Shown here in pieces: positions 9,819 to 56,311 of a DNA stretch of 64,000 nt (the first letter of the stretch is position 1; each line of letters starts with the position of its first letter). The DNA comes from Emticicia sp. 21SJ11W-3. GTDB taxonomy: Bacteria; Bacteroidota; Bacteroidia; Cytophagales; Spirosomataceae. Under the pieces are notes generated by a model. The model worked only from the letters and a program-made list of their open reading frames with translations, was not told the DNA's origin and did not search any database. The position numbers and the translations under genes are program-made. Where the stretch lies: NCBI RefSeq assembly GCF_024138715.1, contig NZ_CP092074.1, positions 4,464,001 through 4,528,000 of the forward strand. The letters are read 5' to 3'.

Positions 9819-9939
9819 TTTACTTATAATGAGAAAAGAAAGTTTAGAGCTGCAAAGGAATTGGCACTTTCTGAGTCTTGTTTTCTTATTCTCTTGTTTA
9901 TCAATAATAATTACTGGTTATGGTTTAGACAGCCCCAAC

Positions 9940-9960
9940 TAACGAAACACCGTTTCGTTA
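9940..9960. repeat. Perfect 9-bp inverted repeat at the GH125 stop codon
   Basis: TAACGAAAC and GTTTCGTTA flank a 3-base centre, a 21-base near-perfect palindrome that includes the TAA stop of the GH125 gene. No T-run follows on either strand. It may be an mRNA hairpin protecting the upstream message or a binding site for a dimeric regulator. Confidence 0.6.
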
Positions 9961-37180: not shown

Positions 37181-37990
37181 ATGAGATTTAAACTTACCTT
37201 AAAGCCCACTAACCCGGGGCAAAAACTTACTCTTAATTATAACCATCCTTTTTCAAGCTGGATATACACCCGTATCAAAGAATCAGATGCCTCCTATGCC
37301 GCCTTTCTGCATCAGAAAGGCTATCGCACTCAGGATTCTACCAAAACCTTTAAACATTTTACGTTCTCAAAGTTTGTTGTACCTCAAAAAGCCAAAGCGA
37401 TTGAAAAGGGCGACGACTTTATGCTGTTATCTGACCAACCCATATATATTACCGTTTCTTTCTTCATTGATAAAGCAGCCGAAGACTTCATTATTGGCCT
37501 CTTTAACAATCAGCAAATCAGCATTTACAACAAAAAATACCAGGCCGATTTCATCATATCTTCAGTTGAATCGTTACCTGCGCCAGCTTTTGCCAATGTA
37601 CCCATGCGCTTTAAAGCCGCCTCGCCAATGGTGATAGCCGAAAAACGCGTCGACGGTACCGACGAATACCTACCCCCTACTGACCCCCGGTTTGCCAGAT
37701 ACTTAGTACAGAACCTGTTTGATAAATATGAGTCGGTACACGGCAAAAGTATAGACGTAGATACCGCCACGCTTGATAAGCTAATCAGGATTAAGCTCAT
37801 TGATACCGAAAAGATGCGTTCTAAGCTCATCTGGATTAAGCAAGACCGCAACGACGAAACTAAAATTAAAGGCTACGAAAATTTTAGTTTTGATTTAACC
37901 GCCCCAGCCGGAATAATAGAAGCAGGATTTTACGGTGGCATAGGTAAATACACCTCGGCGGCAGGCATGGGGTTTCTGGAAATTGTATAA
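37181..37990 (+). CDS. cas6: CRISPR repeat endoribonuclease Cas6 (first copy)
   Basis: 269 residues with two RAMP (ferredoxin-like) domains. The N-terminus (LTLKPTNPGQKLTLNYNHPFSSWIY) is typical of Cas6, with a histidine at about residue 27 as a candidate catalytic base. The C-terminal glycine-rich loop GFYGGIGKYTSAAGMGF (about 249-265) is the family hallmark. It cuts the repeat in pre-crRNA to leave an 8-base 5' handle, here expected to be ATTGAAAC. Base composition matches the host-like flanks rather than the AT-rich cas cassette that holds a second Cas6 gene. Confidence 0.9.
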   Translation: MRFKLTLKPTNPGQKLTLNYNHPFSSWIYTRIKESDASYAAFLHQKGYRTQDSTKTFKHFTFSKFVVPQKAKAIEKGDDFMLLSDQPIYITVSFFIDKAAEDFIIGLFNNQQISIYNKKYQADFIISSVESLPAPAFANVPMRFKAASPMVIAEKRVDGTDEYLPPTDPRFARYLVQNLFDKYESVHGKSIDVDTATLDKLIRIKLIDTEKMRSKLIWIKQDRNDETKIKGYENFSFDLTAPAGIIEAGFYGGIGKYTSAAGMGFLEIV

Positions 37991-38002
37991 AACAACAAGC
38001 TG

Positions 38003-38926
38003 ATGAATGTCTTCCACGACAATAGCCCTAAAAACCGGCTATTAGGGATCCTGAAAAATCTTTTGGAGCAACCGTGCCATTATACCATTAAAATGCTGGC
38101 CGCCCGGTATAATGTGAGCCAATCTATCATCAAAAAAGATTTTGATGAGCTAAAAAACGCGTGGTTTACATTAAAGTATGACAAACAATACCGATACTAC
38201 CTGGTCTCGGACAAATCGCTGGAACACCTTGAAGACGTGCTGTTTTTTACCGGGCCAGAGAAAGAGTTCTTACTTGAAGCACTCACCAAAGCCAACGCTA
38301 CCGACAAACGGCTTGAGAAAATAAGGTCTAAGCTGGAGCGCATTTATGACGTATCAAAACTGGGCAGCAGTTTGTTTTCAAGAACTTTTCTTGACAAGGC
38401 CAATCTGCTTGAACAAGCCCGAAAACAAAAACGCGTAACGACACTGCTTAACTACCGCTCGACCATGAGCAGCCAGGTAAGCAACCGTGTGGTTGAGCCA
38501 TTTCATATAAGTACCAAAGAAGACATACTGCATGCCTATGACCTGGAAAGGAAAGAGATACGCCATTTCAGGATTTCGAGAATTGAGCGAGTAGAACTGC
38601 AAACTGAAAACTGGCAACACGAGACCTTGCACCATGTAGCGGCAACAGACCCCTTCAGAATAGTCAGCGACCAGCAGGTATATATACACTTAAAACTAAA
38701 GACCGGCGCAGTGAACGAACTGATAGATAAATTTCCGGTTTCGCAGGCGTATATACAGCCAAGCAGCACAGAGAAAGACATCTACCATTTTGAGTGCAAA
38801 GTAAATGCCGAGTTTAAGGGCATCAGCAACTTCATTTTGGGTCACTCAGAATACATAGTTGAGATTGTTGAGCCTGAATCACTCATTGAACATATTAATA
38901 AGAAGGTGCAGGGGATAAAGTTTTAG
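38003..38926 (+). CDS. WYL-domain transcriptional regulator
   Basis: 307 residues. An N-terminal winged helix (YTIKMLAARYNVSQSIIKKDFDEL near 31-54) is followed by a WYL domain near 139-215 (LNYRSTMSSQVSNRVVEPFHI, ILHAYDLERKEIRHFRISRIERVEL). WYL domains bind nucleic acid or nucleotides and are recurrent CRISPR-Cas neighbours, usually as repressors. The gene begins 12 bases after cas6, so the two are co-transcribed, and it sits directly before the promoter of the interference cassette, its likely target. Confidence 0.88.
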   Translation: MNVFHDNSPKNRLLGILKNLLEQPCHYTIKMLAARYNVSQSIIKKDFDELKNAWFTLKYDKQYRYYLVSDKSLEHLEDVLFFTGPEKEFLLEALTKANATDKRLEKIRSKLERIYDVSKLGSSLFSRTFLDKANLLEQARKQKRVTTLLNYRSTMSSQVSNRVVEPFHISTKEDILHAYDLERKEIRHFRISRIERVELQTENWQHETLHHVAATDPFRIVSDQQVYIHLKLKTGAVNELIDKFPVSQAYIQPSSTEKDIYHFECKVNAEFKGISNFILGHSEYIVEIVEPESLIEHINKKVQGIKF

Positions 38927-39134
38927 GGGTAGGGCAAGAAATTCTTATTTTTATTACTTAAGAGATACAAAAAAAGCTTTGCAAATACGGTCCGATTTTT
39001 ATTAATACTTATTAATAATTTTTCAATTCCTTACTATTTACAAAGCAATCACAAAGTTACTCTCTATTTAAAAATAAAACACAAAATATGGCTGGGTAAT
39101 TCTAAAAAAAAATAAATTTAATATTTATTTATAA

Positions 39135-39165
39135 TTGGTTCTTAATTTATTTAGTACTACGTTTG
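39135..39165 (+). promoter_or_regulatory. Promoter of the interference cassette
   Basis: TTG (39135-39137), a 20-base spacer and TACGTTTG (39158-39165) give an exact Bacteroidota promoter. Transcription would begin near 39172, 12 bases before the ATG of the zinc-ribbon ORF. The surroundings are extremely AT-rich. Confidence 0.65.
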
Positions 39166-39183
39166 TCCTATAAATAAATTAAG

Positions 39184-39315
39184 ATGAAAGATAACACAGC
39201 GCCATTAATCAATAAGCCGATGTTTTGCCTCAATTGCGGCAAATTACATATTAGTAATTTTAAAGAATGTGAATTATGCAATGGTTTCTGCTTTATTACA
39301 AATGATAATCTATAA
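39184..39315 (+). CDS. 43-residue zinc-ribbon ORF ahead of cas genes
   Basis: A short frame encodes 43 residues with two paired-cysteine knuckles, CLNC at 15-18 and CELC at 29-32, followed by another cysteine at 36. That spacing fits a small zinc ribbon. It starts 18 bases after an exact -7 promoter element and ends 89 bases before the second cas6. Its base composition matches the AT-rich cassette. No known Cas family was recognised; it may be a regulator, an accessory subunit or an RNA/DNA-binding adaptor. Coding status is inferred from position and cysteine pattern. Confidence 0.55.
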   Translation: MKDNTAPLINKPMFCLNCGKLHISNFKECELCNGFCFITNDNL

Positions 39316-39385
39316 AAGCTATAATACCTTAAAACTTTTATTTAAAAAATTTATGGTAGGGCAAATATTGCACCATGCAGGAGTT

Positions 39386-39393
39386 TAAGTTTG
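39386..39393 (+). promoter_or_regulatory. Possible second -7 element before cas6-2
   Basis: TAAGTTTG matches TAnnTTTG exactly, 12 bases before the ATG at 39405. The nearest TTG (39368-39370) is only 15 bases away, shorter than usual, so this is a weak candidate. Confidence 0.3.
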
Positions 39394-39404
39394 AAACGTA
39401 AAAA

Positions 39405-40082
39405 ATGAATATAATAATGAGATTACACATTCACTTATCCCAAAATAAAGAGACAGTGCCTTTTACGTATCAAGAGAGGCAAGTCAGCAAACTGCATTAT
39501 TGGCTAGGACACAATGAGGTGCATGACAAATTATCTCTTTATTCATTCTCATGGCTAAAGAAAGGCAAACAGGAAGGTAAAAAGGGCCTAAACTTTATTA
39601 ATGGCAGCCAATACTTTATTAGTTGTTTTGATAGCCAGAATATTAAAAAAATCATTCAAAGTATCCAGACAGATAATGATTTTGGCTGGGGGATGAAAAT
39701 CATATCCCTAAGCCTTGAAAAAGAACCTGTTTTCAACAATGAACACTCGTTTTCGTTAGGCAGCCCGGTATTTATAAAAAGGCCTCGTTCGGGAGAGAAG
39801 GATGCGAAATTCTACTTTTATAACGATTCAGAAGCCAACATTTTTCTCACCCAAACCCTAATCAATAAGCTTAAGCAAGCAGGACTATCAAGTGAAAGCG
39901 TTGAAGTAAAATTTGATGAATCGTATGCCAGCCCTCATATAAAAGGCTGCACTTATAAAGGAATTAAGAATAAAGGGTCTATGTGCTCAGTGATTATTAA
40001 AGGTACACCTGAGCAACTTGCTTTTGCTTGGAATGTAGGTGTAGGTAATTCTACAGGTATTGGCTTTGGCTCACTAATCTAA
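39405..40082 (+). CDS. cas6: CRISPR repeat endoribonuclease Cas6 (second copy)
   Basis: 225 residues; an alternative ATG lies at 39417 (MRLHIHL). Recognised as Cas6 by the N-terminal pattern (PFTYQERQVSKLHYWLG, then LYSFSWL) and the C-terminal glycine-rich loop GVGNSTGIGFGSL (about 212-224). A histidine in LHYWLG near 34 or in the following HDKL is a possible catalytic residue. It differs strongly from the first Cas6 in length and sequence, and its AT-rich codon use matches cas5-cas3-cas8-cas7, with which it forms an operon (12 bases to cas5). It is the likelier partner of this interference complex. Confidence 0.85.
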   Translation: MNIIMRLHIHLSQNKETVPFTYQERQVSKLHYWLGHNEVHDKLSLYSFSWLKKGKQEGKKGLNFINGSQYFISCFDSQNIKKIIQSIQTDNDFGWGMKIISLSLEKEPVFNNEHSFSLGSPVFIKRPRSGEKDAKFYFYNDSEANIFLTQTLINKLKQAGLSSESVEVKFDESYASPHIKGCTYKGIKNKGSMCSVIIKGTPEQLAFAWNVGVGNSTGIGFGSLI

Positions 40083-40094
40083 AATTAAAGAATT

Positions 40095-40682
40095 ATGGAA
40101 AAATACTATGTAGTTAAATACAGCGGTCAATTTGGTTTTATTAAACCATGGACAGCGGTAAGAGACAGTGAAACTTTCTCTCAGCAATTTTTAACGCCAT
40201 CTATTGTAGAAGGCATTGAAAAAAAGTTGTTTCCGGAGTTGTTATCAGAAAATGGAATAAAAAAGATAGTTGGGCATAGACTTTCATATACTCAAATCAG
40301 TTCTCAGCAAGAAGTCATTCAAACCCGAGGTTGGAATTCTACCCGACAAGGAAAGCAAATTCTTTTCGATAGACCTAAAGCTATTTTGTTGAGAGGCATC
40401 TTATTAGAGCCTGTGCTTCATCTTGCCTTTTTAACTAAAGCAGATGCTGAATTAGCATTAAGCCAGCATATCTGTCTTGTCAGAAATGAAGACTTAATGC
40501 TCCCAGTATCACTCGAAGAAGTATCGAAATACGACTTCAACAATGATACTGAGCGATTTGCAGGCTATGAATTAATCTTTGAAAAAAACGAAAAATCATT
40601 CATTGCCGGCTATCACAGACTAACGAATGACGTAATGCATGGATGGCTTAAAATAGTTGGCACACCTGTAAAACAATTCTAA
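40095..40682 (+). CDS. cas5: Cas5 subunit of the type I (PGING-like) complex
   Basis: 195 residues with a RAMP-like start (KYYVVKYSGQFGFIKPWTAVRDSETFSQQFL). It resembles Cas5p of the Porphyromonas-type I-B variant. In Cascade, Cas5 caps the crRNA 5' handle and contacts Cas8. Its stop codon overlaps the cas3 start in TAATG. Position before cas3, rather than beside cas7, differs from the common I-B order cas8-cas7-cas5-cas3. Assignment rests on context plus family resemblance. Confidence 0.8.
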   Translation: MEKYYVVKYSGQFGFIKPWTAVRDSETFSQQFLTPSIVEGIEKKLFPELLSENGIKKIVGHRLSYTQISSQQEVIQTRGWNSTRQGKQILFDRPKAILLRGILLEPVLHLAFLTKADAELALSQHICLVRNEDLMLPVSLEEVSKYDFNNDTERFAGYELIFEKNEKSFIAGYHRLTNDVMHGWLKIVGTPVKQF

Positions 40683-42835
40683 TGGAAAAGTTATACGCTA
40701 AATCAGGCCCGGAATGGACTTCTTTGGAGGATCATCTTTTGCATGTAGCATTTGCTGCTAAAGCATTTGCCAAACACCTTAAAAAAAATGAAGAATTAGC
40801 ATACAAAGGAGCTATTTTACATGATATTGGCAAGGCACATCCTGCGTTTCAAGAGCGTCTTTTTAGCAATGCGAGGAAAAGTAAAACATTCAGACACGAA
40901 ATCAGCTCGTTATTCTTTTTATCAATATTTCCTGCTGACGAATACGAAGTTTTAATAGAAATGATTATTGGGCATCATAAATCTGTAAAAAATGATGCAG
41001 GCGAAAAGGGTCTACTTGATTTAGAAAAAGGATACGATTATTTGGATTATCATTTAGGAAAATGGGAAGAGTGGAGCGTTAAAGCCATTGAATTATTAAA
41101 TAATTTAGGAATACATGCCTCAACTATTACAAAGGCGCAAGCACTTCAAAACATAGATTTTGTAATAACATATTGTAAGAAAAAAACGAAAGAAAGGGGT
41201 TACTCAGAATGGCGTGGACTTCTAATGGGAGCAGACCACTTTGCTTCTGCCGTTATTAATGATACAGAAAAACATATTAAAAAAGCTTTTAAAAACCCAA
41301 ATCTCTGTTTTTTCAATAGAACAAGTGCTTTATATCCTTTATCATTAATTGATAATTTCCGCTCAGAAAAAAAACACACCATAGTTGTAGCATGCACAGG
41401 TGCAGGCAAGACTGACTACCTTTTTAAAAGATGTAAAGGGAGAGTGTTTTATACTTTACCTTTTCAGGCATCAATTAATGCAATGTTTAAAAGAGTTGCA
41501 CATTCACTTAAAGATACTAATCCGGAACTCGACATTAGGGTCTTACATGCTGCTTCATGTGTTGTGAAAAGAAAAAACGATGAAGAAGAAGAAAGCGTTT
41601 TACAATCATTATTTGGGTCCTCAATTAAAATTCTTACTCCTCATCAATTGGCAGCAATTGCTTTTGGAATGAAAGGATATGAAGCATTACTGCTTGACTT
41701 AAATAGTTGTGATATTATTCTAGATGAAATTCATACTTATTCAGGTATCTCTCAATCAATAGTTTTAAAACTAATTGAAATCTTAAAGGCAAATGATTGT
41801 AGAATCCATATTGGAACTGCTACAATGCCAACAATTCTATATAAAAAAATAATCGAGCTATTAGGAAATGATGTACTTGAAACCAGCCTTTCAGACGAAG
41901 AACTAGACAAGTTTAATCGACACAGGGTATTTAAAATTAACTCATTTGAAGATGCTAATCAGATTATATCAAATTCAACAACTCATAACGAGAAAGTTCT
42001 AATCGTTTTAAATACTGTTGACAAAGCTCAGCAAGTTTATGATTTGATTAAAGAGTCCTATCCTGAAATTGATAAACTTTTATTGCATAGCAGGTTTAGA
42101 AGATGTGACAGAAATGAAAAAGAACTAGATTTAATTGGCTTGGATAATGAAGGAAATCCGATACAGACATTTAATACTTCAAATAAAGCATGTATAGTTG
42201 TTTCCACGCAAATTGTTGAAGTAAGTCTGGATATAAGCTTTGATGTTATGATAACTGAAACAGCTCCTTTAGATGCTCTTATTCAAAGGTTTGGCCGAAT
42301 AAATAGAAAAAGAACTACAGAAAATGCAGAAACAATAAAAGATGTTTTTGTGATTGCTCCGCCTGAAAGCACTAAGGATGCTAAACCTTATGACATTGAA
42401 ATTTTGAAACGGACTTTCAATGTATTAAGCAATGGCGAAATTCTTAAAGAACGTGAACTTCAACAAAAAATCGATACAGTTTTTACAGAAATCAACTTTT
42501 TAAAGATTGAAGAGCATGCAGTTTTTAAGTCTGATGGAAGAATTAGCATTGATAAACTCACCCATAGTAGAGAACCCATATTAATGCAACTACTTGAAAT
42601 TGATTCCGTATCATGTATTCGTGAATCAGACCAGGATGAATACGAAAATTCTTACTTTGAAAGGAGGCTTGAATTGGAAATACCCGTCAGATACTTTTCA
42701 GTATGCAAAATGAATCAATCAGAAAAAGGGAATAAACCTTTTATTATTCCTGATAAAGCCTATGACCTAGAAAAAGGACTATTTGTTAAAGAAATAAAAG
42801 AAGAAAATTTTAACTCTAAGTTTCAAATTTTATGA
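40682..42835 (+). CDS. cas3: Cas3 helicase-nuclease
   Basis: 717 residues with an N-terminal HD nuclease fused to an SF2 helicase. HD residues: H18/H21 (EDHLLHVAF), H47-D48 (AILHDIGK), H72 and H98-H99 (IIGHHK). Helicase motifs: Walker A TGAGKT at 239-244, DEIH at 348-351 in place of the usual DEAH, TATMP at 379-383, and the C-terminal VVSTQIVEVSLDISFDV and LIQRFGRINRK motifs. It unwinds and degrades target DNA recruited by Cascade. It overlaps cas5 by one base and cas8 by four (ATGA), showing tight translational coupling. Confidence 0.95.
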   Translation: MEKLYAKSGPEWTSLEDHLLHVAFAAKAFAKHLKKNEELAYKGAILHDIGKAHPAFQERLFSNARKSKTFRHEISSLFFLSIFPADEYEVLIEMIIGHHKSVKNDAGEKGLLDLEKGYDYLDYHLGKWEEWSVKAIELLNNLGIHASTITKAQALQNIDFVITYCKKKTKERGYSEWRGLLMGADHFASAVINDTEKHIKKAFKNPNLCFFNRTSALYPLSLIDNFRSEKKHTIVVACTGAGKTDYLFKRCKGRVFYTLPFQASINAMFKRVAHSLKDTNPELDIRVLHAASCVVKRKNDEEEESVLQSLFGSSIKILTPHQLAAIAFGMKGYEALLLDLNSCDIILDEIHTYSGISQSIVLKLIEILKANDCRIHIGTATMPTILYKKIIELLGNDVLETSLSDEELDKFNRHRVFKINSFEDANQIISNSTTHNEKVLIVLNTVDKAQQVYDLIKESYPEIDKLLLHSRFRRCDRNEKELDLIGLDNEGNPIQTFNTSNKACIVVSTQIVEVSLDISFDVMITETAPLDALIQRFGRINRKRTTENAETIKDVFVIAPPESTKDAKPYDIEILKRTFNVLSNGEILKERELQQKIDTVFTEINFLKIEEHAVFKSDGRISIDKLTHSREPILMQLLEIDSVSCIRESDQDEYENSYFERRLELEIPVRYFSVCKMNQSEKGNKPFIIPDKAYDLEKGLFVKEIKEENFNSKFQIL

Positions 42836-44154
42836 TAACAACCGTTGTTGGAAAAACATTTTTAGAAGCATATAATGCAAAATATGAAGTAAATAAATCT
42901 CCGAAAGAGTTTTTTGAGGAAGTTTATTTTGAGTTATTCTATAATCACGCTAAATATATGCAATGGGTGACCAACTCTCCGTTTGTTCAAATGAAAACAG
43001 GCCAAAAACCTGAACTTTTGACTCATACTGAAAGAATTGAGAAGCTCGAAAACTTATTCGAAAAGGTTGAAAATTCAGAACCTGACGCAAGTTTTGCACT
43101 CGGTTTCCCTGCATCTGAATTAAAAGAATACGCAAGCACGTCTGGCCTGGTTAGTGATTTAGTTATACCAACAACACCCGATGACATTTACTTATCATGG
43201 ATTGGCAGCGGTCTAGGGATTGGAGTAGCCGGTGGGTTTTCCATACTTTATAATGATGCTAAAATTACCTTACAGACTTTCGAAGGATGGAAAATTTATA
43301 GAAAATACTTAGAAGATGATGGGTTAGATAAACTTAGGGGGAATCAAATAAATACTTGGAATGGACAGTGGTTGAAATATTCATTAGATAAAGATGAATA
43401 CAGGGAAGACTTTGATTTTACTGAATTAACTAATCAAAAAATCTTTGCTGTAAGTGAGTCATTGGCAGAGGTTAATACTGTAAACTGGTCAGAACTTTTC
43501 TTTAGTCTCTCTCAATTGTATCCACAAGGCGAATTAACTGGTTACGTATACGGATTCGGTCAAACTAACAAAACTATAGGGTTTATACCTTTTTATCTAA
43601 AATCTGGCACTAGAATAATTGATATTTATCGCCAATTATTCGGAGAACTAAATACTGACAAAAAGCGCTTTGAAGCTCTTTTTGGGATGCACATTAAACG
43701 CGCTTGTGAGCTTGGCAGTATAGGATTGCAAGCACTTAGGCCTGAAGGGCTTGTTAAGTATATGAAAGAAGATAAAACTATTTCATTAAAGAAAGAAGAA
43801 GATACATTTAATTATTACGCATATAAAACCTGGCTTATAGCAATGATATCAAAAAACAAAGATGAAATAACAGATTATACACTTGAATTGGCGGAGACCT
43901 TTTTAGAGTATAGAAACCGCGGGAGTAAGAATGATAGAAAAACTCTATTAGAAAAATTATTCTCAACGAAAACAAAAAAAGCTTTTTTAACAAATCTGAC
44001 AGAAATGATAGAAGGCTTTGAAAAAGAAGAAGATAGATTAAAACTTAGGAATTTTAGAAATGAAACTCATTTGATGACAAATGAAGAATTTGAATACTTT
44101 CACATATTACTAAAATTTGACTACACATTTGTTGAAAAAAATAATAAAAACTAA
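42832..44154 (+). CDS. cas8: Cas8-type large subunit (Csp2-like)
   Basis: 440 residues, no clear catalytic motif. Its position between cas3 and cas7 and its size fit the large subunit of Cascade, and the sequence resembles the Csp2 group of the PGING variant. The large subunit recognises the PAM and helps open target DNA. The C-terminal 130 residues are rich in lysine and glutamate and predicted helical; no separate small-subunit gene exists, so this region may take that role. Function is inferred from context and family resemblance. Confidence 0.75.
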   Translation: MITTVVGKTFLEAYNAKYEVNKSPKEFFEEVYFELFYNHAKYMQWVTNSPFVQMKTGQKPELLTHTERIEKLENLFEKVENSEPDASFALGFPASELKEYASTSGLVSDLVIPTTPDDIYLSWIGSGLGIGVAGGFSILYNDAKITLQTFEGWKIYRKYLEDDGLDKLRGNQINTWNGQWLKYSLDKDEYREDFDFTELTNQKIFAVSESLAEVNTVNWSELFFSLSQLYPQGELTGYVYGFGQTNKTIGFIPFYLKSGTRIIDIYRQLFGELNTDKKRFEALFGMHIKRACELGSIGLQALRPEGLVKYMKEDKTISLKKEEDTFNYYAYKTWLIAMISKNKDEITDYTLELAETFLEYRNRGSKNDRKTLLEKLFSTKTKKAFLTNLTEMIEGFEKEEDRLKLRNFRNETHLMTNEEFEYFHILLKFDYTFVEKNNKN

Positions 44155-44162
44155 ATAAAAAT

Positions 44163-45236
44163 ATGAATACTATTTATATCAGAACTTTAAAACGAGCAGA
44201 ACACACAGTGTTTTGTGTTGCAGATGGCCAAAAATATTATTATGATAATCAATTTGGAAGAAGAATTCCTTTCTCAAGTGGACAACAAGTAAAACGCTCA
44301 TTAATTGAAACATTATGTGATGCAATTAATCAAAAGCCTTCTCCAACTACATTCATATCTGAAATTGTAAATGTAAAAGGTAAGAAAGAAATCAATGAAG
44401 GAGAGGTCTTTGGCACTTGTGATCCGACTTTCGCAGACCAATTATTTGGAGGATGGATGAAAGCTTCCAAAGCTCTTGAAGGGGTTAAAAAAGAAAGGAC
44501 TCTAAAGAGAAGAAGCCCTCTTTCTATCTCTGCAATGCGAGCTTTACACCCACTATTGGCAGGAATGCAAAAAGAAGCTGGATCTTTTGATAGAAGCGAA
44601 AGACCTAATAATCTAATCGTTGTGAGAGATGAAAAAGGCAATCAATTGTCAGATGAGGATATAAATGACTTATTAGACGGAAAAGACCGAAGCCTAACAA
44701 GAAAATGGCTAAATGCATCTGATAGAGCCTCAGGCTTGTTTGTTTCAGATATAGCAATTGATTTAAGACGCTTATTTTCTGTCTCATTAAATAGTTTTGA
44801 ACCTGAAATGTCAGATAAGACTATTGATAAACTAAAAGAAGAAGGATGGAAAGAATCGGAAAACGTATTTGGCAAATGTCTTGTAGCACCAAAAGAATTA
44901 AGAAAAGAATGGATTAAAGGATTAGCTAAAGCAATCATTGACTGGAGAATCACCTCAAATCAGGCAAGAACATTTAGCTTAATGGATACTTTAGCAATAT
45001 CAATTAGTGATAATGCAAATCTGATAGCAGGTAGCATTAGAGCAAAATTATCGGAAGAAGATTCAGACAAAGCCAATCCAATTATTGAAGAAAACCTGAA
45101 AGGTGTAAACACATTTATTACACTTCAAGCCGGAGGATACATACAAACAAAAGGAGAAACTTCAGACGCCCTCGAAAAAGCAGAAGAAAAGCTGATAGAG
45201 CTTTTAACAAGTTTTGACTACGAGAATCAATTATAA
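44163..45236 (+). CDS. cas7: Cas7 backbone subunit (Csp1-like)
   Basis: 357 residues. The N-terminus (MNTIYIRTLKRAEHTVFCV) and the RRSPLSISAMRALHPLLAG segment near 118-136 fit Cas7/Csp1 of the PGING I-B variant. Several copies of Cas7 form the filament that holds the spacer part of the crRNA. The gene follows cas8 by 8 bases and ends the AT-rich cassette: three bases later cas4 begins with a sharply higher GC content. Lines sampled inside cas3 and cas4 give about 25% and 47% GC. Confidence 0.82.
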   Translation: MNTIYIRTLKRAEHTVFCVADGQKYYYDNQFGRRIPFSSGQQVKRSLIETLCDAINQKPSPTTFISEIVNVKGKKEINEGEVFGTCDPTFADQLFGGWMKASKALEGVKKERTLKRRSPLSISAMRALHPLLAGMQKEAGSFDRSERPNNLIVVRDEKGNQLSDEDINDLLDGKDRSLTRKWLNASDRASGLFVSDIAIDLRRLFSVSLNSFEPEMSDKTIDKLKEEGWKESENVFGKCLVAPKELRKEWIKGLAKAIIDWRITSNQARTFSLMDTLAISISDNANLIAGSIRAKLSEEDSDKANPIIEENLKGVNTFITLQAGGYIQTKGETSDALEKAEEKLIELLTSFDYENQL

Positions 45237-45239
45237 ACC

Positions 45240-45785
45240 ATGCCCATCACAGCTACCCTCATCAATTATCTGATGGTTTGTTACCGGAAAGTCTGGCTAC
45301 ACGCCAACGGCATCCGGATGGAACATACCTCTGAGATAGTTGCTGAGGGTAGGCTCATAGGGCAGGAAAGCTACCCCCAACGTGCCGAACGATACACCGA
45401 AATTGAGGTGTCGGCGCAATTCCCCCACCCTGCTTACCAGTTTATATCGCTGGCAGCAAAAATAGATTTCTTTGACCCCTCAACGGGTGTGGTGCATGAA
45501 ATAAAAAAATCAAACGCAAAAGAGCACGCCCACGTAGCGCAGGTGCAGTTTTATTTATATGTGCTGCGGCTTAACGGTATCCGGGCCGACTATGGGCTGC
45601 TTGAGTACCCAAAACTTCGTATTACTGAAAAAGTAAGCCTTTCGGCTTCTGACCAACAACAACTGGAAGCGCTTATTATAAAAACTCATGAAATTGCTAC
45701 CCTGAGCCATTGCCCCGACAGGCTGCCTGTCAGTAAATGTAAGTCTTGCAGTTTTTTTGAATTTTGCTGGGTTGGAGAAGAATAA
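45240..45785 (+). CDS. cas4: Cas4 spacer-processing nuclease
   Basis: 181 residues. RecB-type nuclease residues are the aspartate of KIDFFD and the EIKKS pair near 88-92. Four cysteines for an iron-sulfur cluster are in place: C14, C167, C170 and C176. Cas4 trims prespacers and selects those with a proper PAM before Cas1-Cas2 integrate them. It is followed by cas1 after 9 bases. Base composition resembles the host flanks, unlike cas7. Confidence 0.93.
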   Translation: MPITATLINYLMVCYRKVWLHANGIRMEHTSEIVAEGRLIGQESYPQRAERYTEIEVSAQFPHPAYQFISLAAKIDFFDPSTGVVHEIKKSNAKEHAHVAQVQFYLYVLRLNGIRADYGLLEYPKLRITEKVSLSASDQQQLEALIIKTHEIATLSHCPDRLPVSKCKSCSFFEFCWVGEE

Positions 45786-45794
45786 ACCTGAATC

Positions 45795-46799
45795 ATGAAA
45801 AAAACATACTACTTGTTTAATCCGGGCAGGATGTCGCGCCGCGACAATACGCTTAGTTTTACCCCTATCGACGAAAATAACGTGGAAGGGCAAACGCGTT
45901 ACATTCCCATTGAAACCGTAGATAACATCTATTGTTTTGGTAGCCTCGATGCCAATTCTGCTTTGTATAATTTCCTGGGTAAGAACCATGTATCTGTTCA
46001 TTTTTTCGATTATTACGAGCATTACACAGGCTCCTTTATGTCTAAAGATTATCTGCTGGCAGGCAAAATGCAGATAGACCAGACAAAGCATTACAGTTCT
46101 GACAAAAAACGACTTATAATTGCCCGTAAAATTATTGACGGTGCGGCGTTTAATATGCTCAAAAATCTGAGTTATTATGCCAACCGGGGCCGGAATCTGG
46201 CAGAGGCCATTAACCGTATCAGCAGCTATACCGTACTTATACCCGGTGCCACAAAAATTGATGAACTGATGGGCATTGAAGGGAATATCAGGCAGGCATA
46301 TTACTCAGGCTTTGATGAGATAATCAACGATTTTGAAATGGGGAACCGCACAAAACAACCGCCAACCAACGAGATTAACACCTTGATTTCGTTCGGCAAC
46401 ATGCTATGCTATACGGCTTGCCTGAGCCAGATCTATCATACACAACTAAACCCCACCATCAGTTTTTTGCATGAACCCGGCTATCGAAGATATTCTCTGG
46501 CCTTAGACCTGGCCGAGATTTTTAAACCTATATTGATTGACAGGCTCATATTTACGGTTCTGAACAAGCATCAGATAAAAGCTGGCGATTTCAGAAAAGA
46601 GCTAAATGCCTGTGTTATGAAAGACTCGGCGCGGAAAACATTTGTGCAAGCCTTTGAAGAAAAACTAAAAGAGACTTTCAGGCACCGGAAACTGAGCCGC
46701 AATGTATCATACAAGCAGTTAATAAAGCTAGAGTGCTACAAGCTACAAAAACATATTTTGGGTATAGAAGAATATAAACCATTCAGGATGCTGTGGTGA
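45795..46799 (+). CDS. cas1: Cas1 integrase, type I-B
   Basis: 334 residues. The N-terminal beta domain starts KKTYYLFNPGRMSRRDNTLSF, a typical type I-B opening. Catalytic metal ligands are the glutamate in GIEGNIRQAYY near 156, the histidine in SFLHEPGYRRYS near 223 and the aspartate in LALDLAEIFKP near 236. It integrates new spacers at the leader end of the array together with Cas2. The gene lies in an adaptation module cas4-cas1-cas2 next to the array. Confidence 0.96.
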   Translation: MKKTYYLFNPGRMSRRDNTLSFTPIDENNVEGQTRYIPIETVDNIYCFGSLDANSALYNFLGKNHVSVHFFDYYEHYTGSFMSKDYLLAGKMQIDQTKHYSSDKKRLIIARKIIDGAAFNMLKNLSYYANRGRNLAEAINRISSYTVLIPGATKIDELMGIEGNIRQAYYSGFDEIINDFEMGNRTKQPPTNEINTLISFGNMLCYTACLSQIYHTQLNPTISFLHEPGYRRYSLALDLAEIFKPILIDRLIFTVLNKHQIKAGDFRKELNACVMKDSARKTFVQAFEEKLKETFRHRKLSRNVSYKQLIKLECYKLQKHILGIEEYKPFRMLW

Positions 46800-46827: not shown

Positions 46828-47091
46828 ATGTATGTGATTCTTGTTTATGACATAGGCGAAAAGCGGGTCGGCAAAATGCTTAAGTTTTGCCGGAAGTACC
46901 TGAACTGGATTCAGAATTCGGTGTTTGAAGGGGAAATAACTGAAGTAAAGCTGAAGGAAATGCTGATAGGCGCAAAGAAGATAATGAATGAAGAAACCGA
47001 CAGTATTATTATTTTTAAGAGCCGTGAAGAAAGGTGGCTCGACAAAGAAATTATAGGTATTGAAAGGATGAGAACCGATAACTTTCTGTAG
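46828..47091 (+). CDS. cas2: Cas2 adaptation protein
   Basis: 87 residues with a ferredoxin-like fold start (MYVILVYDIGEKRVGKMLK), D8 being the conserved aspartate. The C-terminus ends IERMRTDNFL. Cas2 forms the central dimer of the Cas1-Cas2 integrase. It is the last cas gene, 28 bases after cas1 and about 190 bases before the first repeat. Confidence 0.95.
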   Translation: MYVILVYDIGEKRVGKMLKFCRKYLNWIQNSVFEGEITEVKLKEMLIGAKKIMNEETDSIIIFKSREERWLDKEIIGIERMRTDNFL

Positions 47092-47257: not shown

Positions 47258-50200
47258 CATCATCTGAGCCGTTTTTTCAACGGCCACCAATCGCACCATA
47301 TAGGAATTGAAACATTAGATTAAGCCCTTTTGCATTAAAAGGCAGTTTAACCACCAATCGCACCATATAGGAATTGAAACAGCGAGTCATTTACACTGCC
47401 CAACAGCACAAAAGGCACCACCAATCGCACCATATAGGAATTGAAACGAAATATAAGGACCTGGCAAATGCTGATAAAGGAGACCACCAATCGCACCATA
47501 TAGGAATTGAAACTGAACCATGAGTCTTTACATACGGCATGGTACAACCTCCACCAATCGCACCATATAGGAATTGAAACTTTGATTGTTTCTGCCAACG
47601 CACAAAATTTATTGAACCACCAATCGCACCATATAGGAATTGAAACGAATAAACTCCTCCAGAGCCAACGCTGGCCCATATCGCCACCAATCGCACCATA
47701 TAGGAATTGAAACACTACTAAAATGCTTGCGACTGAAGAAGCCTTGGGTTCCACCAATCGCACCATATAGGAATTGAAACGAGGTGGCGTTCGTCTTCGG
47801 TGCCTTTTCTTTGCCCTCCACCAATCGCACCATATAGGAATTGAAACTTTAGCTATTCGTTTCTTACTCCGAATAAACCGGACCACCAATCGCACCATAT
47901 AGGAATTGAAACAGGAGGAAGTCGAAGAACTTAAACGCCGATACGGAGCCACCAATCGCACCATATAGGAATTGAAACTTTTCTTATCTCTTCTTTTTGT
48001 CTGTTGCTCTCAACCCCACCAATCGCACCATATAGGAATTGAAACTTTATTATAACGGTGTTGCTTAGATGCGATACTGTCCACCAATCGCACCATATAG
48101 GAATTGAAACTCAAATTGCGTTGGCAGCGTTCCGGTTACATTGCCGCCACCAATCGCACCATATAGGAATTGAAACATGGCCCTGAGCAATCTACGTACA
48201 CTTCTGCTGTACCACCAATCGCACCATATAGGAATTGAAACTGAGTTCCTTTTGCCCTCTCTCTACTTGTTCTATGCCACCAATCGCACCATATAGGAAT
48301 TGAAACAAAAAATAAGGCCACAAACGTGGCCTTTATTTCGATGCCACCAATCGCACCATATAGGAATTGAAACTTGACAGCTGCTAAATCACAAGTGTAT
48401 CAGGACTTACCACCAATCGCACCATATAGGAATTGAAACCGGATAACCAAAGGCCGACCCCTCCGTTGTTGTCTGACCACCAATCGCACCATATAGGAAT
48501 TGAAACATAGGTAAAACCGTTGTTTGGTTTATATCCGTAAAAGCCACCAATCGCACCATATAGGAATTGAAACTTCCATATTACCGGTCTTTCTATCGAC
48601 CTCGTAACTAACCACCAATCGCACCATATAGGAATTGAAACTCATACACGGTCATTTTACGGCCTGTTTGCCCTCTACCACCAATCGCACCATATAGGAA
48701 TTGAAACAAGTAACTGCCGGGCGTGGATGCAAAATAAAATAGATCCACCAATCGCACCATATAGGAATTGAAACGCCTTAAACTAGCTAAAGTTAGTAAT
48801 GTAATAGCTAACCACCAATCGCACCATATAGGAATTGAAACAACATTTTTAATGAAACAAATTAAGCATTTATGCAGAACCACCAATCGCACCATATAGG
48901 AATTGAAACTAAGTTACAAACCCGTTTTCCGTTCTGGCAGGCCAACCACCAATCGCACCATATAGGAATTGAAACGCTTCAGGCGGTCATGGTCTCAACT
49001 TACAGGCCGGACCACCAATCGCACCATATAGGAATTGAAACTTTCAGGATAAGCTAAGATTAATTCTGGTTTTTTGTCCACCAATCGCACCATATAGGAA
49101 TTGAAACAATGATACAAGAAGACATTGCAACGTCTTTGCAGATGCCACCAATCGCACCATATAGGAATTGAAACAATACTGCCGCTTAACGGTTTCGTTT
49201 TGTACCCTGAACCACCAATCGCACCATATAGGAATTGAAACGAAACCGACTACACTACACAAGCACCCGAGCCTTACCACCAATCGCACCATATAGGAAT
49301 TGAAACGCTATAAATATTAATTCGTATCTCCTGAGTATAGACACCACCAATCGCACCATATAGGAATTGAAACAAGTGGCAACTCTTTATCAGCGCGCAA
49401 TCTCACAACCCACCAATCGCACCATATAGGAATTGAAACTAATAAGTATTTGATAAGTACAATTATATTCTTGAGTACCACCAATCGCACCATATAGGAA
49501 TTGAAACCATTAATCTATTCCTTGATGCTGATGCCAGCGGCCGCCACCAATCGCACCATATAGGAATTGAAACAACCGAATGGATTTTTTATCCCGGCTC
49601 TACCTGCGCCACCAATCGCACCATATAGGAATTGAAACTTGTTAGCTTAAACTCGCTTGTGTTAAATGTTGTAGGCCACCAATCGCACCATATAGGAATT
49701 GAAACAACTCTAAACTTTAAAAGATTGCCGGGGATGGATATCCACCAATCGCACCATATAGGAATTGAAACTCAGGTGGTGGCAGCTCAGGAGGAGGTGG
49801 CGTTATAGCCACCAATCGCACCATATAGGAATTGAAACCCGCCTTAACTTTGAATTTGACAGATTCCGAAATAATCCACCAATCGCACCATATAGGAATT
49901 GAAACCCATAAAGTTTATGCCCTACTGCTTTTTTGTATTCAGCCACCAATCGCACCATATAGGAATTGAAACCCTACATCTACAATTTTAACGGGGAAAC
50001 CATCCATAACCACCAATCGCACCATATAGGAATTGAAACTTTTCCGACTGGGAATTTATCCCCTCTGGCGTTTATACCACCAATCGCACCATATAGGAAT
50101 TGAAACTATAATAAAATGAAAATAAATGATTTAAAATTTGCTACCACCAATCGCACCATATAGGAATTGAAACACATTGAAATCATTTGAAAGTGAATTG

Positions 50201-50475
50201 GCTTAATGCCACCAATCGCACCATATAGGAATTGAAACTATGTAATAGGCGGCGCGCCTTTCTTGCCGTCATTGTCCACCAATCGCACCATATAGGAATT
50301 GAAACATTTGCCAACGAGTTTGATGTTATCCGTGCCATTGCGCCACCAATCGCACCATATAGGAATTGAAACCCCCAATATTCAAAACCTTCAACGCTAG
50401 GATAAGGGTCCACCAATCGCACCATATAGGAATTGAAACTACTATGAGCGCTATATTAATGCCCGAAATCGTTAT

Positions 50476-50505
50476 CCACCAATCGCACCATATCGGAATT
50501 GAAAC
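50476..50505 (+). repeat. Variant CRISPR repeat (A to C)
   Basis: The repeat reads TATCGG at 50491-50496 where the others read TATAGG. Single change at 50494, in the middle of the array. Confidence 0.9.
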
Positions 50506-53500
50506 GATAATCTTATATAAGTAGAACTAGCAGTAGCGGCAACCACCAATCGCACCATATAGGAATTGAAACTTTTAACTTTGCTAGAGGCCTTTTTAGC
50601 CTTAACTCCACCAATCGCACCATATAGGAATTGAAACTATCTGTTAACTGTCCTCATAATTCTAAGGTTGACGTCCACCAATCGCACCATATAGGAATTG
50701 AAACTGTTTATCAATTTTTTTAGCGTGCCAAATAATGTATTCCACCAATCGCACCATATAGGAATTGAAACATTCAAAATAACTTTCTTCTGTTACAGTT
50801 TTAAAATACCACCAATCGCACCATATAGGAATTGAAACTAATTATGGCAAAGATAATATTCTATATCGTAGATTAACCACCAATCGCACCATATAGGAAT
50901 TGAAACTATAATAAAATGAAAATAAATGATTTAAAATTTGCTACCACCAATCGCACCATATAGGAATTGAAACAATTTAACAGTTCTCATATACTCTCTT
51001 TGCTTATCCACCAATCGCACCATATAGGAATTGAAACTAACTTGAATACCTAGCTTAATATCTTTGTTATCCGCCCACCAATCGCACCATATAGGAATTG
51101 AAACAAGGAATCCGACCAAACATTTTTAATGAAACAAATTACCACCAATCGCACCATATAGGAATTGAAACTAGAAAACGGGCGGCCTAGCGGTACTTCT
51201 GCTTCTCCACCAATCGCACCATATAGGAATTGAAACGAAAATGAGAAAGGCACACCTATCATTCTCAGCCGGCCACCAATCGCACCATATAGGAATTGAA
51301 ACATATCGGTAATGAGTGAGAAACCAAATTGATGAATTCCACCAATCGCACCATATAGGAATTGAAACAAACGCCAGGCCTCGCCCGGTGCAAAATCTGT
51401 TGGTCCACCAATCGCACCATATAGGAATTGAAACGTGGTTGAAATTAGTTTTGTGAGCGATCGTGGCTCTACCACCAATCGCACCATATAGGAATTGAAA
51501 CCCTATCATTAACTGTTTCATTTCTTTTGTGTCGTTTACCACCAATCGCACCATATAGGAATTGAAACAAAAGCCACGCCCCGGCGACCTTATAGGGTAT
51601 ATGTCCACCAATCGCACCATATAGGAATTGAAACTTACGGCAAAGAATAGTTTTGATGTTGATATTATGCTACCACCAATCGCACCATATAGGAATTGAA
51701 ACAGCAAGCATTTAGTCAAGGTGCTTAATGGTAAAGCAACCACCAATCGCACCATATAGGAATTGAAACTTGTATCCGCTAATAGAAACGGGGTTGACTA
51801 AAAACCACCAATCGCACCATATAGGAATTGAAACCAACACAATACAGCTTCAAGGTGAACAGCTGAAAACCACCAATCGCACCATATAGGAATTGAAACC
51901 GTTAATGACAAAGAGTATTCTTCATTATACTTTTCCCACCAATCGCACCATATAGGAATTGAAACCCTATGCCCGAGAATAAGTCTAACAGTATTATTTT
52001 CACCACCAATCGCACCATATAGGAATTGAAACCAACTAGTTCTACAACTACATCAACTTCAACTAGTTCCCACCAATCGCACCATATAGGAATTGAAACG
52101 CGTATTCATCCGCGTATCAACAATCAGGAGTATGTTCCACCAATCGCACCATATAGGAATTGAAACAAAGAATTCATATCAGCAACAGGAGAGAAGTTTT
52201 ATCCACCAATCGCACCATATAGGAATTGAAACTTAGCTACCGAATCAGCCTTAATTGATGGGGATGGCTCCACCAATCGCACCATATAGGAATTGAAACA
52301 CTTTTGTGCAACCTCTGGCAATATTCCAGGTTACACCACCAATCGCACCATATAGGAATTGAAACTTCAGGCAGTGTTGTACAAAAGCGTAGGCTTTCAA
52401 CCACCAATCGCACCATATAGGAATTGAAACTTTTTAAATACTAACAAATTTTAGCGATGGACGGAACCACCAATCGCACCATATAGGAATTGAAACTTGA
52501 AACGGCTTCAGATAACCCTGAAGCCGTTTTTACCACCAATCGCACCATATAGGAATTGAAACACGCCCCGGTGGCATCCTTAACGCTACTACTGTAATTC
52601 CACCAATCGCACCATATAGGAATTGAAACCCTAAAAATTCATTTCCTGTTTTTTCGTCTACCCACCACCAATCGCACCATATAGGAATTGAAACTAAGCA
52701 GATGTTAGCATCTTCTTATATGCTTCCTTCCCCACCAATCGCACCATATAGGAATTGAAACTCGCATCCGGGTAAAAAGAAAGCCCTGTTTTCTCACCAC
52801 CAATCGCACCATATAGGAATTGAAACTCCGGTAATTGATTGGGGGTTCTGGCTCCCCGATGGCACCACCAATCGCACCATATAGGAATTGAAACTTGTCT
52901 TTAAACCCTACGCCTGTTTGGTTTCCCCTTCCACCAATCGCACCATATAGGAATTGAAACTTACTTGTTTATGAAGCAATCCAAGTGCTTTTGTACCACC
53001 AATCGCACCATATAGGAATTGAAACTTTGATGTGTTTTTTATTCCTTTTGGATGTATCAACCACCAATCGCACCATATAGGAATTGAAACATTTCAACAA
53101 ATAAGACATTTATCAGGCAAACTATCCCACCAATCGCACCATATAGGAATTGAAACTTCAAAAGAGCCGGCCAATGGTGGCAGGCTTACAAGCCACCAAT
53201 CGCACCATATAGGAATTGAAACTCGTACAATTCATACACGATAGTTTTTTCGTTTGCTCCACCAATCGCACCATATAGGAATTGAAACTAAGCGTAAATA
53301 CTTTTTGATGAATATGATACTAGCACCACCAATCGCACCATATAGGAATTGAAACTTGGCAATCAGCAATGTACACGTGCCGTTTGCATTTCCACCAATC
53401 GCACCATATAGGAATTGAAACCCGTTCAATCTTGCTTATAAATACTTGCTTTTTTATACCACCAATCGCACCATATAGGAATTGAAACATAAGCCGCACT

Positions 53501-55644
53501 GGCCGCCATGCCTGCCACATAAGCCACCAATCGCACCATATAGGAATTGAAACCTTTTTATGGGTGGGCAAAAAGCCTGAGCATTTTACCACCAATCGCA
53601 CCATATAGGAATTGAAACCTTTATACTTATCGTCAGCAATGCGCCAGAAACCGTCCACCAATCGCACCATATAGGAATTGAAACGAGTACTTGTAAACAA
53701 CCTCGGCCGTTGCATCAAATACCACCAATCGCACCATATAGGAATTGAAACGTAAAACATAAGAGCATAATAAACAAAAAACCGGGGTCCACCAATCGCA
53801 CCATATAGGAATTGAAACAAATTCGCGTGCAAGGAACTGATAGAGACGTATATAACCACCAATCGCACCATATAGGAATTGAAACGACAGCAACCTTAAA
53901 TAATTCTGCTTGATTTCCTTGCACCACCAATCGCACCATATAGGAATTGAAACTAATATCCCGTCATATTTACAATGCTCAAAGCCTCCCACCAATCGCA
54001 CCATATAGGAATTGAAACATTGGGTTGGTTGGCGACCAACCCACTACAATAGACCACCAATCGCACCATATAGGAATTGAAACTCAACGGCAAAGGATTT
54101 ACTTTCGTGTCGACTTACTCCACCAATCGCACCATATAGGAATTGAAACTAATAATAATAATTTGTTTTAATCTTCAATAGCTGCCACCAATCGCACCAT
54201 ATAGGAATTGAAACCACGTTTTTAAATCTGTCATGAAGTGAAAAATTTTACCACCAATCGCACCATATAGGAATTGAAACTCGGGATAATACACATCTGC
54301 ACCGTTCTTTACTACTTTCCACCAATCGCACCATATAGGAATTGAAACACGCCCAACGTCGCGCTTCATTCTTTGCCAGTACAACCACCAATCGCACCAT
54401 ATAGGAATTGAAACCTATGGTAGCAAAATTAGGTCATAGCAGATTTTTAGTCCACCAATCGCACCATATAGGAATTGAAACTTCCGAAACACCTATCGTC
54501 CACAAGACCGAGTAACCCACCAATCGCACCATATAGGAATTGAAACCAAAATGCTTTCGCAAAGCATGGATTGAAAAAACCGCCACCAATCGCACCATAT
54601 AGGAATTGAAACCCGATAAAGAAATATCTACCCCTGAGAGTTCTAATGTACCACCAATCGCACCATATAGGAATTGAAACGTATAAAATTATAAATGATA
54701 CCACGGCCTTGACATCGCCACCAATCGCACCATATAGGAATTGAAACGCTTTACCCAAAATTTTACACACTAATTCGCCTGAACCCACCAATCGCACCAT
54801 ATAGGAATTGAAACAACCAGGCTTTGACGTCTCCTACTGTAACTTTGCCGTCCACCAATCGCACCATATAGGAATTGAAACAAACTATACTGCTACATTC
54901 GATTGCATGGCTTAAAAGCCCACCAATCGCACCATATAGGAATTGAAACTCAATCCAAAGTTATCAAAAGAGGCGAGAGAAACAACCACCAATCGCACCA
55001 TATAGGAATTGAAACGCTTTAGGGTCCGTAAATGTTAGTTTTCCAGCAGGGCCACCAATCGCACCATATAGGAATTGAAACTCAACCAGTCCGGCTTGAT
55101 GCCTAGCCGCCCGGCTATCCACCAATCGCACCATATAGGAATTGAAACTGCGAAGCGCGCCCCTGTCGCCTTTCGGATTTGTCACCACCAATCGCACCAT
55201 ATAGGAATTGAAACAAGCTTGTCTCCTTTAACGTTAGCCGTTGTTTGCGCCACCAATCGCACCATATAGGAATTGAAACTGAAATTAGCGATTCAGAAAC
55301 GTTTTTTAGCTTACCACCAATCGCACCATATAGGAATTGAAACTCTATCAGGAAATGAAGCGTTTGCAAGCAGAGACCGCCACCAATCGCACCATATAGG
55401 AATTGAAACGGCGCAAAGAGTGTAAACGGTCGGGCGGAATCAGTCCACCAATCGCACCATATAGGAATTGAAACGATACTTTAATTAAAAGGTTGTTGAC
55501 TGACAGAGAAACCACCAATCGCACCATATAGGAATTGAAACTAGGCGATTGCAATTCATAAGCTGTAACATAAGCAGACCACCAATCGCACCATATAGGA
55601 ATTGAAACTTCTTTATAAGAACTACCCAATACCCAAAAATTTCA

Positions 55645-55678
55645 CCACCAATCGCACCATACATATAGGAATTGAAAC
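55645..55678 (+). repeat. CRISPR repeat with 4-base insertion
   Basis: The centre reads CACCATACATATAGG instead of CACCATATAGG, a 4-base expansion giving a 34-base repeat. It should alter the repeat hairpin or Cas6 contact, so the flanking crRNAs may be poorly made. Confidence 0.9.
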
Positions 55679-55850
55679 ACCTCGTCAACTGGTCTTCCAA
55701 GGTTGATTTACACGACCACCAATCGCACCATATAGGAATTGAAACTATCGCCTAATTTACCAAAACCCTGTTGCAGTCTGGCACCACCAATCGCACCATA
55801 TAGGAATTGAAACTCCATTATTAGGCTCAAAACGCCTTCCGGAAACCATA

Positions 55851-55880
55851 CCACCAATCGCACCATATAGGAATTGAAAT
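55851..55880 (+). repeat. CRISPR repeat with altered last base
   Basis: The repeat ends GAAAT instead of GAAAC. The changed base is the last of the 5' handle, next to the spacer. Confidence 0.88.
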
Positions 55881-56049
55881 TTTTGTAATTGTGCAACTTT
55901 TTCAAGATAAGATAAGCCACCAATCGCACCATATAGGAATTGAAACGCCTAATAATACTGCTCTCCACATTTCAATTAAATACCACCAATCGCACCATAT
56001 AGGAATTGAAACTCTGATTTTAATGCGCTAACTGACCTTGTAGCTTCGT

Positions 56050-56311
56050 CCACCAATCGCACCATATAGGAATTGAAACATAATTTCAATACGCCGGTGT
56101 TGGGTATGGGTACGGACCACCAATCGCACCATATAGGAATTGAAACAATTTAACAGTTCTCATATACTCTCTTTGCTTATCCACCAATCGCACCATATAG
56201 GAATTGAAACATAATTTCAATACGCCGGTGTTGGGTATGGGTACGGACCACCAATCGCACCATATAGGAATTGAAACAATTTAACAGTTCTCATATACTC
56301 TCTTTGCTTAT
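56050..56311 (+). repeat. Tandem duplication of a two-spacer unit in the array
   Basis: Spacer 56080-56116 equals 56211-56247, and spacer 56147-56180 equals 56278-56311. The 131-base unit of two repeats plus two spacers is present twice in tandem. The second spacer also occurs at 50974-51007. Confidence 0.95.

Follow-up and report, generated by a model that had tools for sequence, protein, structure and literature searches.

The question raised by this locus is whether a very short, unannotated open reading frame (ORF), placed at the head of an operon of cas genes, which accompany clustered regularly interspaced short palindromic repeats (CRISPR), is truly a gene, and if so, what governs its expression and what its product could contribute to the cell. 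The frame is found in a stretch of 64,000 nucleotides (nt) from Emticicia sp. 21SJ11W-3 (NCBI RefSeq assembly GCF_024138715.1, contig NZ_CP092074.1, positions 4,464,001 to 4,528,000), referred to here as the window, whose own numbering is used throughout. An initial annotation, made from the sequence, had described it as a frame of 43 residues bearing two CxxC knuckles, preceded by a promoter and followed by the second cas6, and the coordinates bear this out: a TTG as the -33 element (39135-39137, plus strand), 20 nt of spacing, the -7 element TACGTTTG (39158-39165, plus strand; of the form TAnnTTTG), 18 nt more, and then the ATG at 39184 of a frame that runs to 39315 on the plus strand. We call this gene ZR, for zinc ribbon; its product has 43 amino acids (aa), MKDNTAPLINKPMFCLNCGKLHISNFKECELCNGFCFITNDNL, with the knuckles arranged as CLNC-x10-CELC. 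The explanation that best accounts for the whole, to which we would assign a probability of about 0.55, is that ZR is a real gene, which opens the effector operon as its first cistron, that its promoter is under a control of the CreR/CreA type, and that the ZR protein is a modulator of this feedback.

That ZR is a real, conserved gene is practically certain. It is found at 17 distinct loci of the Bacteroidota, the window included, with the frame disrupted in one of them (L189; G and L numbers are our labels for genomes and loci) and two degenerate copies excluded. The ZR of the window, used alone as a query against 222 genomes of its own family, gave a match at E<=1 in 88 of them, mostly by chance; however, the five best foreign matches, in five genomes (G102, 4.5e-5; G045, 2.9e-4; G172, 8.5e-4; G093, 8.8e-4; G116, 2.3e-3), all adjoin cas genes, as do the weaker ones accepted in G160, G183, G155 and G066, and two further members (G171 and G131) came from a scan for CxxC pairs in the cas loci of relatives. 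A profile of 12 rows returned 14 matches at E<=1e-4 in the same 222 genomes, 13 of them beside cas operons; twelve (E<=1.4e-14) are the profile's own rows, and another, in G118 (5e-6), also lies beside cas genes. The match in G088 (5e-5) was rejected, as it has no cas genes nearby and is without the LxNRP part, and weak matches in G054, G082 and G174 were discounted because cas genes are not nearby.

A second route, anchored on Cas1, covered 80 loci of public genomes, in 65 of which the gap could be set, and 48,280 frames. It placed ZR in seven loci (L125, L133, L136, L159, L161, L162 and L189), five of them outside the profile rows with E-values of 9e-14 to 5e-6 among the 48,280 frames, and extended the gene to the Chitinophagaceae; L125, L133 and L136 are the loci of G118, G045 and G131, and are counted once within the 17. 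The two copies left uncounted are L140, degenerate and from this same set, and L113 (8595-8753; contig C88 of G119, E 0.004), probably a degenerate ZR to judge by its LINRP and first knuckle, which are all that it keeps, directly 5′ of a cas8 that shares 51% identity with its counterpart in G160. In genomes sampled from the order (390), the class (345) and the phylum (345), with some 20 candidates scored in each, no strong ZR appeared outside its own family; weak matches were seen in 11 genomes at 0.001-0.01 (one of the own family) and, below 0.001, in G930 and G1102. Since so few candidates were scored per genome, weak matches remain and the Chitinophagaceae members came to light through the Cas1 anchor, absence elsewhere is not proven by these samples. 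The plasmids scanned contained no ZR, and two scans of viral contigs confirmed none.

The conserved homologues that the initial annotation had proposed to look for in related loci are thus at hand, and at all 17 loci ZR has the orientation of the cas genes and immediately precedes the first of the effector-operon genes. Its 5′ neighbor is cas6 or a WYL gene, with an extra gene between in a few cases (G118, Flavipsychrobacter L161 and G172). The product ranges from 37 to 57 aa; the two knuckles, 7-11 residues apart, are invariant in 17 of 17 rows (and in a 16-row alignment), so that the four cysteines occur in 17, and L, N, P and F follow in 16, 16, 15 and 15. With start codons chosen by the analyst, the ATG of the next cas gene lies at most 13 nt from ZR, or overlaps it, at ten of the 17 loci. 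This closeness, together with the shortness of a first ORF, would be expected if ZR were a leader acting in cis, whose translation, perhaps dependent on zinc or redox state, would tune that of the next cas gene. Such a leader is, however, a very unlikely account, because in the other seven loci the distance is 50-120 nt, and because over all pairs of the 17 rows codon positions 1, 2 and 3 are identical at 53, 57 and 36%, respectively, which indicates that it is the amino acids that are kept. The comparison of nonsynonymous (dN) and synonymous (dS) changes points the same way: G172/G160, the only pair whose divergence is low enough for a good estimate, has dN 0.077 and dS 0.974 over 51 codons (dN/dS about 0.08), G102/G171 gives 0.36/1.27 and Arachidicoccus/G102 0.41/1.19, while dS was saturated in the other four pairs tried. 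The purifying selection for which the initial annotation had proposed a test is therefore present, as far as codon comparison can tell, in the measurable pairs.

As to what ZR encodes, its cysteines make it a probable zinc-binding protein of the zinc-ribbon kind. Nothing significant was returned by Pfam, NCBIfam (searched with the window member only), PADLOC, the sequences of the PDB or Foldseek; in Pfam no match had an E-value below 0.01, and hence there is no KilA-N domain. A match to DrmA (0.0086, in one of 12 members) and the Pfam matches at 0.01 or worse were taken as noise. Generic small zinc ribbons, for example archaeal ribosomal Zn-ribbon proteins, resemble ZR weakly in sequence (best E 0.015), and the best Foldseek match has a probability of 0.96 but an E-value of 0.36, so that neither in sequence nor in structure is the match significant. 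No description of the family was recognized in literature searches at the level of titles and passages, and the word undescribed, used of the frame from the beginning, holds for the family libraries searched.

The second part of the question, what governs the promoter, finds a probable answer in the opposite strand. Upstream of ZR, on the minus strand, there is a degenerate repeat, psiR1 (39020..39049; p 0.01), whose 3′ handle, GGAATTGAAA, is that of the repeat of the array; it is followed by a pseudo-spacer, psiS (39002..39019, ATTATTAATAAGTATTAA), and by a possible second degenerate repeat, psiR2 (38973..39001), with 15/30 agreement over 38973-39002 and 12/18 in the stem part. The 18-nt psiS matches a target on the same strand (39118..39135), in the -33 region, at 16 of 18 nt, agreeing at positions 1-5, 7-11 and 13-18 and differing only at 6 and 12. 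Next to the target lies the protospacer-adjacent motif (PAM) 5′-CCA-3′ on the minus strand (39136..39138; TGG on the plus strand), in such a way that the TTG of the ZR promoter overlaps both the last base of the target and the PAM. A putative -7 element for a promoter of the guide RNA, TAACTTTG, is found at 39052..39059 (minus strand).

The same arrangement recurs in other cas loci. Of 21 chosen loci (window included), 15 contain an opposite-strand relic of the array repeat at p<=0.05, and the 17-18 nt that lie 3′ of the relic's handle match a site adjoining YCA. In a wider scan of 58 regions (52 Cas1-anchored gaps plus another six), where 15 positions were scored and positions 6 and 12 skipped, a guide at 14/15 or better was found in 25, as against 9-11 for eight other evenly spaced phases and 16-17 for three half-shifted pairs. 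Because positions 6 and 12 were skipped in the scoring, the mismatches there are not independent proof, and it is this phase control that takes the place of that argument. Although the search took no account of the PAM, all 25 matches adjoin YCA (CCA or TCA); in 24 of the 25 the guide is on the opposite strand, the lone exception being L156, with a sense guide, a 15/15 target and a TCA PAM. A 14/15 match would be expected by chance about 1e-4 to 2e-3 times per 1000 positions, before allowing for several handle candidates. Of eight regions outside the 58, run later, L177 reached 15/15 with CCA and L145 13/15, and the rest stayed at or below 12 or yielded no candidate; another nine Cas1 loci, whose gaps are shorter than 90 nt, stood outside these tests. 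The guide lies 45-137 nt from its target in 21 of 22 guide loci (773 nt in L192). A strict TAnnTTTG is found 3′ of the PAM in 15 of the 22, against a background of 2.9% per 61 nt, and a box on the guide side, within 95 nt, also in 15 of 22, a figure that stands without a background.

At the ZR loci themselves, with region bounds set by the analyst, a guide at 13/15 or better is present in 16 of 17, and 12 of the 17 share one geometry, namely an opposite-strand guide, a YCA, and a target whose end lies 34-60 nt before the ATG. Arachidicoccus has a sense guide (13/15), and G172, G160 and G155 carry theirs, also in sense, within the 5′ leader, with TTTA as the PAM. It could be supposed that the ORF and the match of its guide are accidents of an AT-rich intergenic region, as the composition and the single-locus p of 0.01 in the window might allow; but the joint pattern over loci, the PAM, the phase control and the dN/dS contradict this, and we regard it as exceedingly improbable. 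The strength of the case for the guide is that joint pattern, and not the p-value of any single locus, and on this basis a CreR/CreA-type control of the ZR promoter by Cascade seems to us very probable.

The Cas-regulating RNA, CreR, was reportedly described by Liu et al. in 2023 in Cell Host Microbe. According to passages in reviews, it is an RNA resembling a CRISPR RNA (crRNA) that directs the effector to repress the cas promoter, a repression relieved by crRNAs or anti-CRISPRs; those passages also describe degenerate repeats beside cas and a partial complementarity to the cas promoter, and report the case for subtype I-B among others. The window has the same constituents: degenerate repeats beside cas and outside the array (psiR1 clearly, psiR2 weakly) and a spacer partly complementary to a cas promoter, with its PAM. 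It differs in that a protein gene matched by no library is the first cistron, that the match extends to about 18 nt, and that guide and operon are antisense to each other in all but one of 25 regions; the transcription of the guide and the repression are, in the window, predicted from sequence alone. In CreTA, the type VIII toxin-antitoxin system (PMC8501985, PMC9458426), the likeness extends to the site, which in H. hispanica is between cas6 and cas8, and to the pairing, which in the creA of H. hubeiense involves positions 1-5 and 7-11 beside a TTC PAM (PMC8501985) and lies upstream of the first product; in contrast, CreT is an RNA toxin that carries a mini-ORF, whereas ZR is a conserved protein that shares the promoter of Cascade. 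The guide, then, belongs to a kind already known, CreR/CreA, whereas the protein family of ZR is matched by nothing in the libraries that were searched.

What the ZR protein does must be approached through what sits behind such guides. A guide (14/15 or better) is present in 11 of 13 regions with ZR and in 14 of 45 without it (Fisher p 0.0008), an enrichment that is suggestive, since long gaps hold a guide more easily. In six guide loci without ZR (L124, L128, L160, L163, L183 and L192) there is no small ORF before the first long gene, and the target is at or shortly before that gene (left unnamed in L128); autorepression of cas thus looks like the base function, to which ZR and other small proteins would be add-ons. 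Another six guide loci without ZR carry a different small ORF in the same slot: L134 (2884-3057), L150 (2858-3037) and L152 (2874-3056), alike by eye, of 57-60 aa and with charges of -13, -6 and -7; L175 (3005-3160; 51 aa, net charge -8); L179 (3754-3948; 64 aa, -10); and L202 (958-1215; 85 aa, -1). Five of the six are acidic, and the four that were scanned had no significant match in Pfam; L142, L156 and L184 are left out of this tally.

This interchangeability also suits a toxin. In CrePA, a protein toxin is under CreA-type control, its promoter being kept down by Cascade together with a crRNA-like RNA (PMC12737573), and ZR, too, encodes a protein and follows a promoter that contains a CreA-like target, insofar as this can be read from the DNA. 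If ZR were such a toxin, Cascade and the guide would keep it off, and the loss or inhibition of Cascade would free it and stop growth. The site recalls that of creTA in H. hispanica; the slot is filled by ZR at 17 loci and by different small ORFs at six of the guide loci; regions that bear a guide are enriched in ZR, and both degenerate copies (L140 and L113) are without a guide. However, ZR shares its promoter, and often its translation, with Cascade, so that a boost of Cascade would boost the toxin too; six guide loci run directly into a long gene; the guide is retained in L189 though ZR is disrupted; and ZR, a predicted zinc ribbon of 37-57 aa inside the cas operon whose toxicity is hypothetical, is unlike the KilA-N domain typical of CreP and unlike other families of Pfam or PADLOC. 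We therefore hold a toxin to be possible, though on balance unlikely. Only tentatively would we go further and propose that the promoter repressed by Cascade is followed by a cargo slot in which small proteins (the zinc ribbon and at least one acidic family) can replace one another; released when Cascade fails, they would be effectors of CRISPR failure, either protein toxins or anti-anti-CRISPR factors, inside an operon that makes its own repressor.

Another possibility is a structural role, with ZR as a small subunit of either the I-B effector or the adaptation complex, as its closeness to the first effector gene might suggest. The Cas8 proteins that accompany it fall by BLAST into five groups: the type of the window (window, G171 and G131, plus G102 at 31-33%); G045, G093, G118 and Chitinophaga; G116, Arachidicoccus and Niastella; G183, Flavipsychrobacter and L140; and a Csh2-like group, itself split (G172; G160; G155 with G066). 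All five proteins typed with PADLOC, one for each of the first four groups plus G172, matched Cas8b models, so that ZR occurs with no fewer than five Cas8b lineages within subtype I-B; besides, among 19 genomes with the Cas8 type of the window and a visible upstream region, ZR is present in four, window included, and missing from 15. A subunit is thus very doubtful, and ZR is not a part specific to a PGING Cascade. The initial annotation had spoken of a PGING-type system, which is not sustained: no NCBIfam model named for PGING (the Csp1/Csp2/Cas5p type) matched the cas5, cas8 or cas7 of the window at E<=1, whereas the PADLOC models for Cas8b, Cas7b and Cas5 assign the effector to subtype I-B. 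Its proposal of an accessory factor of that Cascade keeps the conserved small gene beside the effector genes and was otherwise too narrow, and the alternative it offered, an autoregulator, survives in the sense that the operon is predicted to regulate itself, although through a mini-CRISPR guide with Cascade, any regulatory role of the ZR protein being our conjecture.

The presence of ZR in at least five Cas8b lineages and its enrichment at guide-bearing promoters favor a modulator over a subunit of one type of Cascade, and to the idea of a modulator, rather than a toxin, leader or subunit, we would give about even odds. Following the CreR/CreA precedent, the guide RNA would be transcribed, processed by Cas6 and loaded into Cascade, which would occupy the promoter and keep both ZR and Cascade low; when Cascade became scarce, filled with ordinary crRNAs or blocked by an anti-CRISPR, ZR and Cascade would rise together. 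ZR would then act in trans on the feedback, for example by binding the guide-Cascade complex, the cas mRNA or RNA polymerase, and this is the weakest step.

Several observations weigh against this explanation, in whole or in part. Most relatives of the same operon are without ZR, and hence both Cascade and the feedback can do without it. The AlphaFold model of ZR, with two short strands, is modest (predicted local distance difference test, pLDDT, 72.6; 53-69 in four other models), and Foldseek found no PDB match for it at E<=0.001. As regards the guides, psiR2 is weak in the window; single-locus p-values are 0.01-0.05 (100 resamples, which themselves reached 12-14 of 15); the matches of G172 and Arachidicoccus are only 13/15 (p 0.04-0.05), and G066 has ZR with an unconvincing guide (12/15, p 0.37). 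The targets in G093 and G118 escaped an earlier scan that used different repeat anchors, and in G111 (L069, 3470-3498) a strong opposite-strand repeat relic (24/29) has no recognized target. To these must be added the two degenerate copies without a guide and, conversely, the guide retained beside the disrupted frame of Chitinophaga qingshengii (L189).

With ZR, type I-B CRISPR loci gain a conserved gene family, and CreR/CreA-like control in the Bacteroidota gains an exact geometry. The suggestion of a swappable small-protein cargo at Cascade-repressed promoters would, in turn, make the response of the cell to CRISPR inhibition directly testable, and this in environmental bacteria that are harmless.

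The remainder of the locus, all on the plus strand, consists of a first cas6 (37181..37990) and a regulator of the HTH-WYL type (38003..38926), both family-model matches, the gap, ZR, and then cas6b (39405..40082; TIGR01877 2e-22, PADLOC Cas6b 5.5e-83), cas5 of I-B (40095..40682), cas3 (40682..42835), cas8b (42832..44154), cas7b (44163..45236), cas4 (45240..45785), cas1 (45795..46799) and cas2 (46828..47091), with cas5, cas8b and cas7b assigned by PADLOC and cas3, cas4, cas1 and cas2 by family models; a long array with 158 exact copies of CCACCAATCGCACCATATAGGAATTGAAAC closes the series (47284..57929). In one relative (L068 of G164, about 9227-10280), some 1 kb of other sequence interrupts cas8. 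Just 5′ of cas6b in the window there is a sense-strand repeat-like element (39361-39390; 19/30, p about 0.015), which, tried as a guide over 36.5-41 kb, had itself as its sole target. Lone cores of the CRISPR repeat (22-23/29), some 75-110 nt 5′ of cas6b, are seen in L074 (8854), L076 (4800) and L077 (8911), each with a run of T where the 3′ handle would stand, and could be a leader bound by Cas6. An Rfam scan of four loci gave nothing at gathering scores, and another, of the stretch from the window, gave one chance match. In L055, L058 and L060 (G172, G160 and G155), a strong hairpin (GAGTCGACA...TGTCGACTC and variants) stands between the sense guide and the ZR ORF; a tRNA fragment was considered for it and rejected, as the loop occurs once per genome, and only there. 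Finally, in relatives the gap between the WYL gene and cas also holds oppositely oriented genes (L061, 9624-10128; L062, 4408-5092; L055, 8530-9188), which resemble, by eye, toxin-antitoxin pairs of the BrnT or HigBA type or a RadC-like protein.
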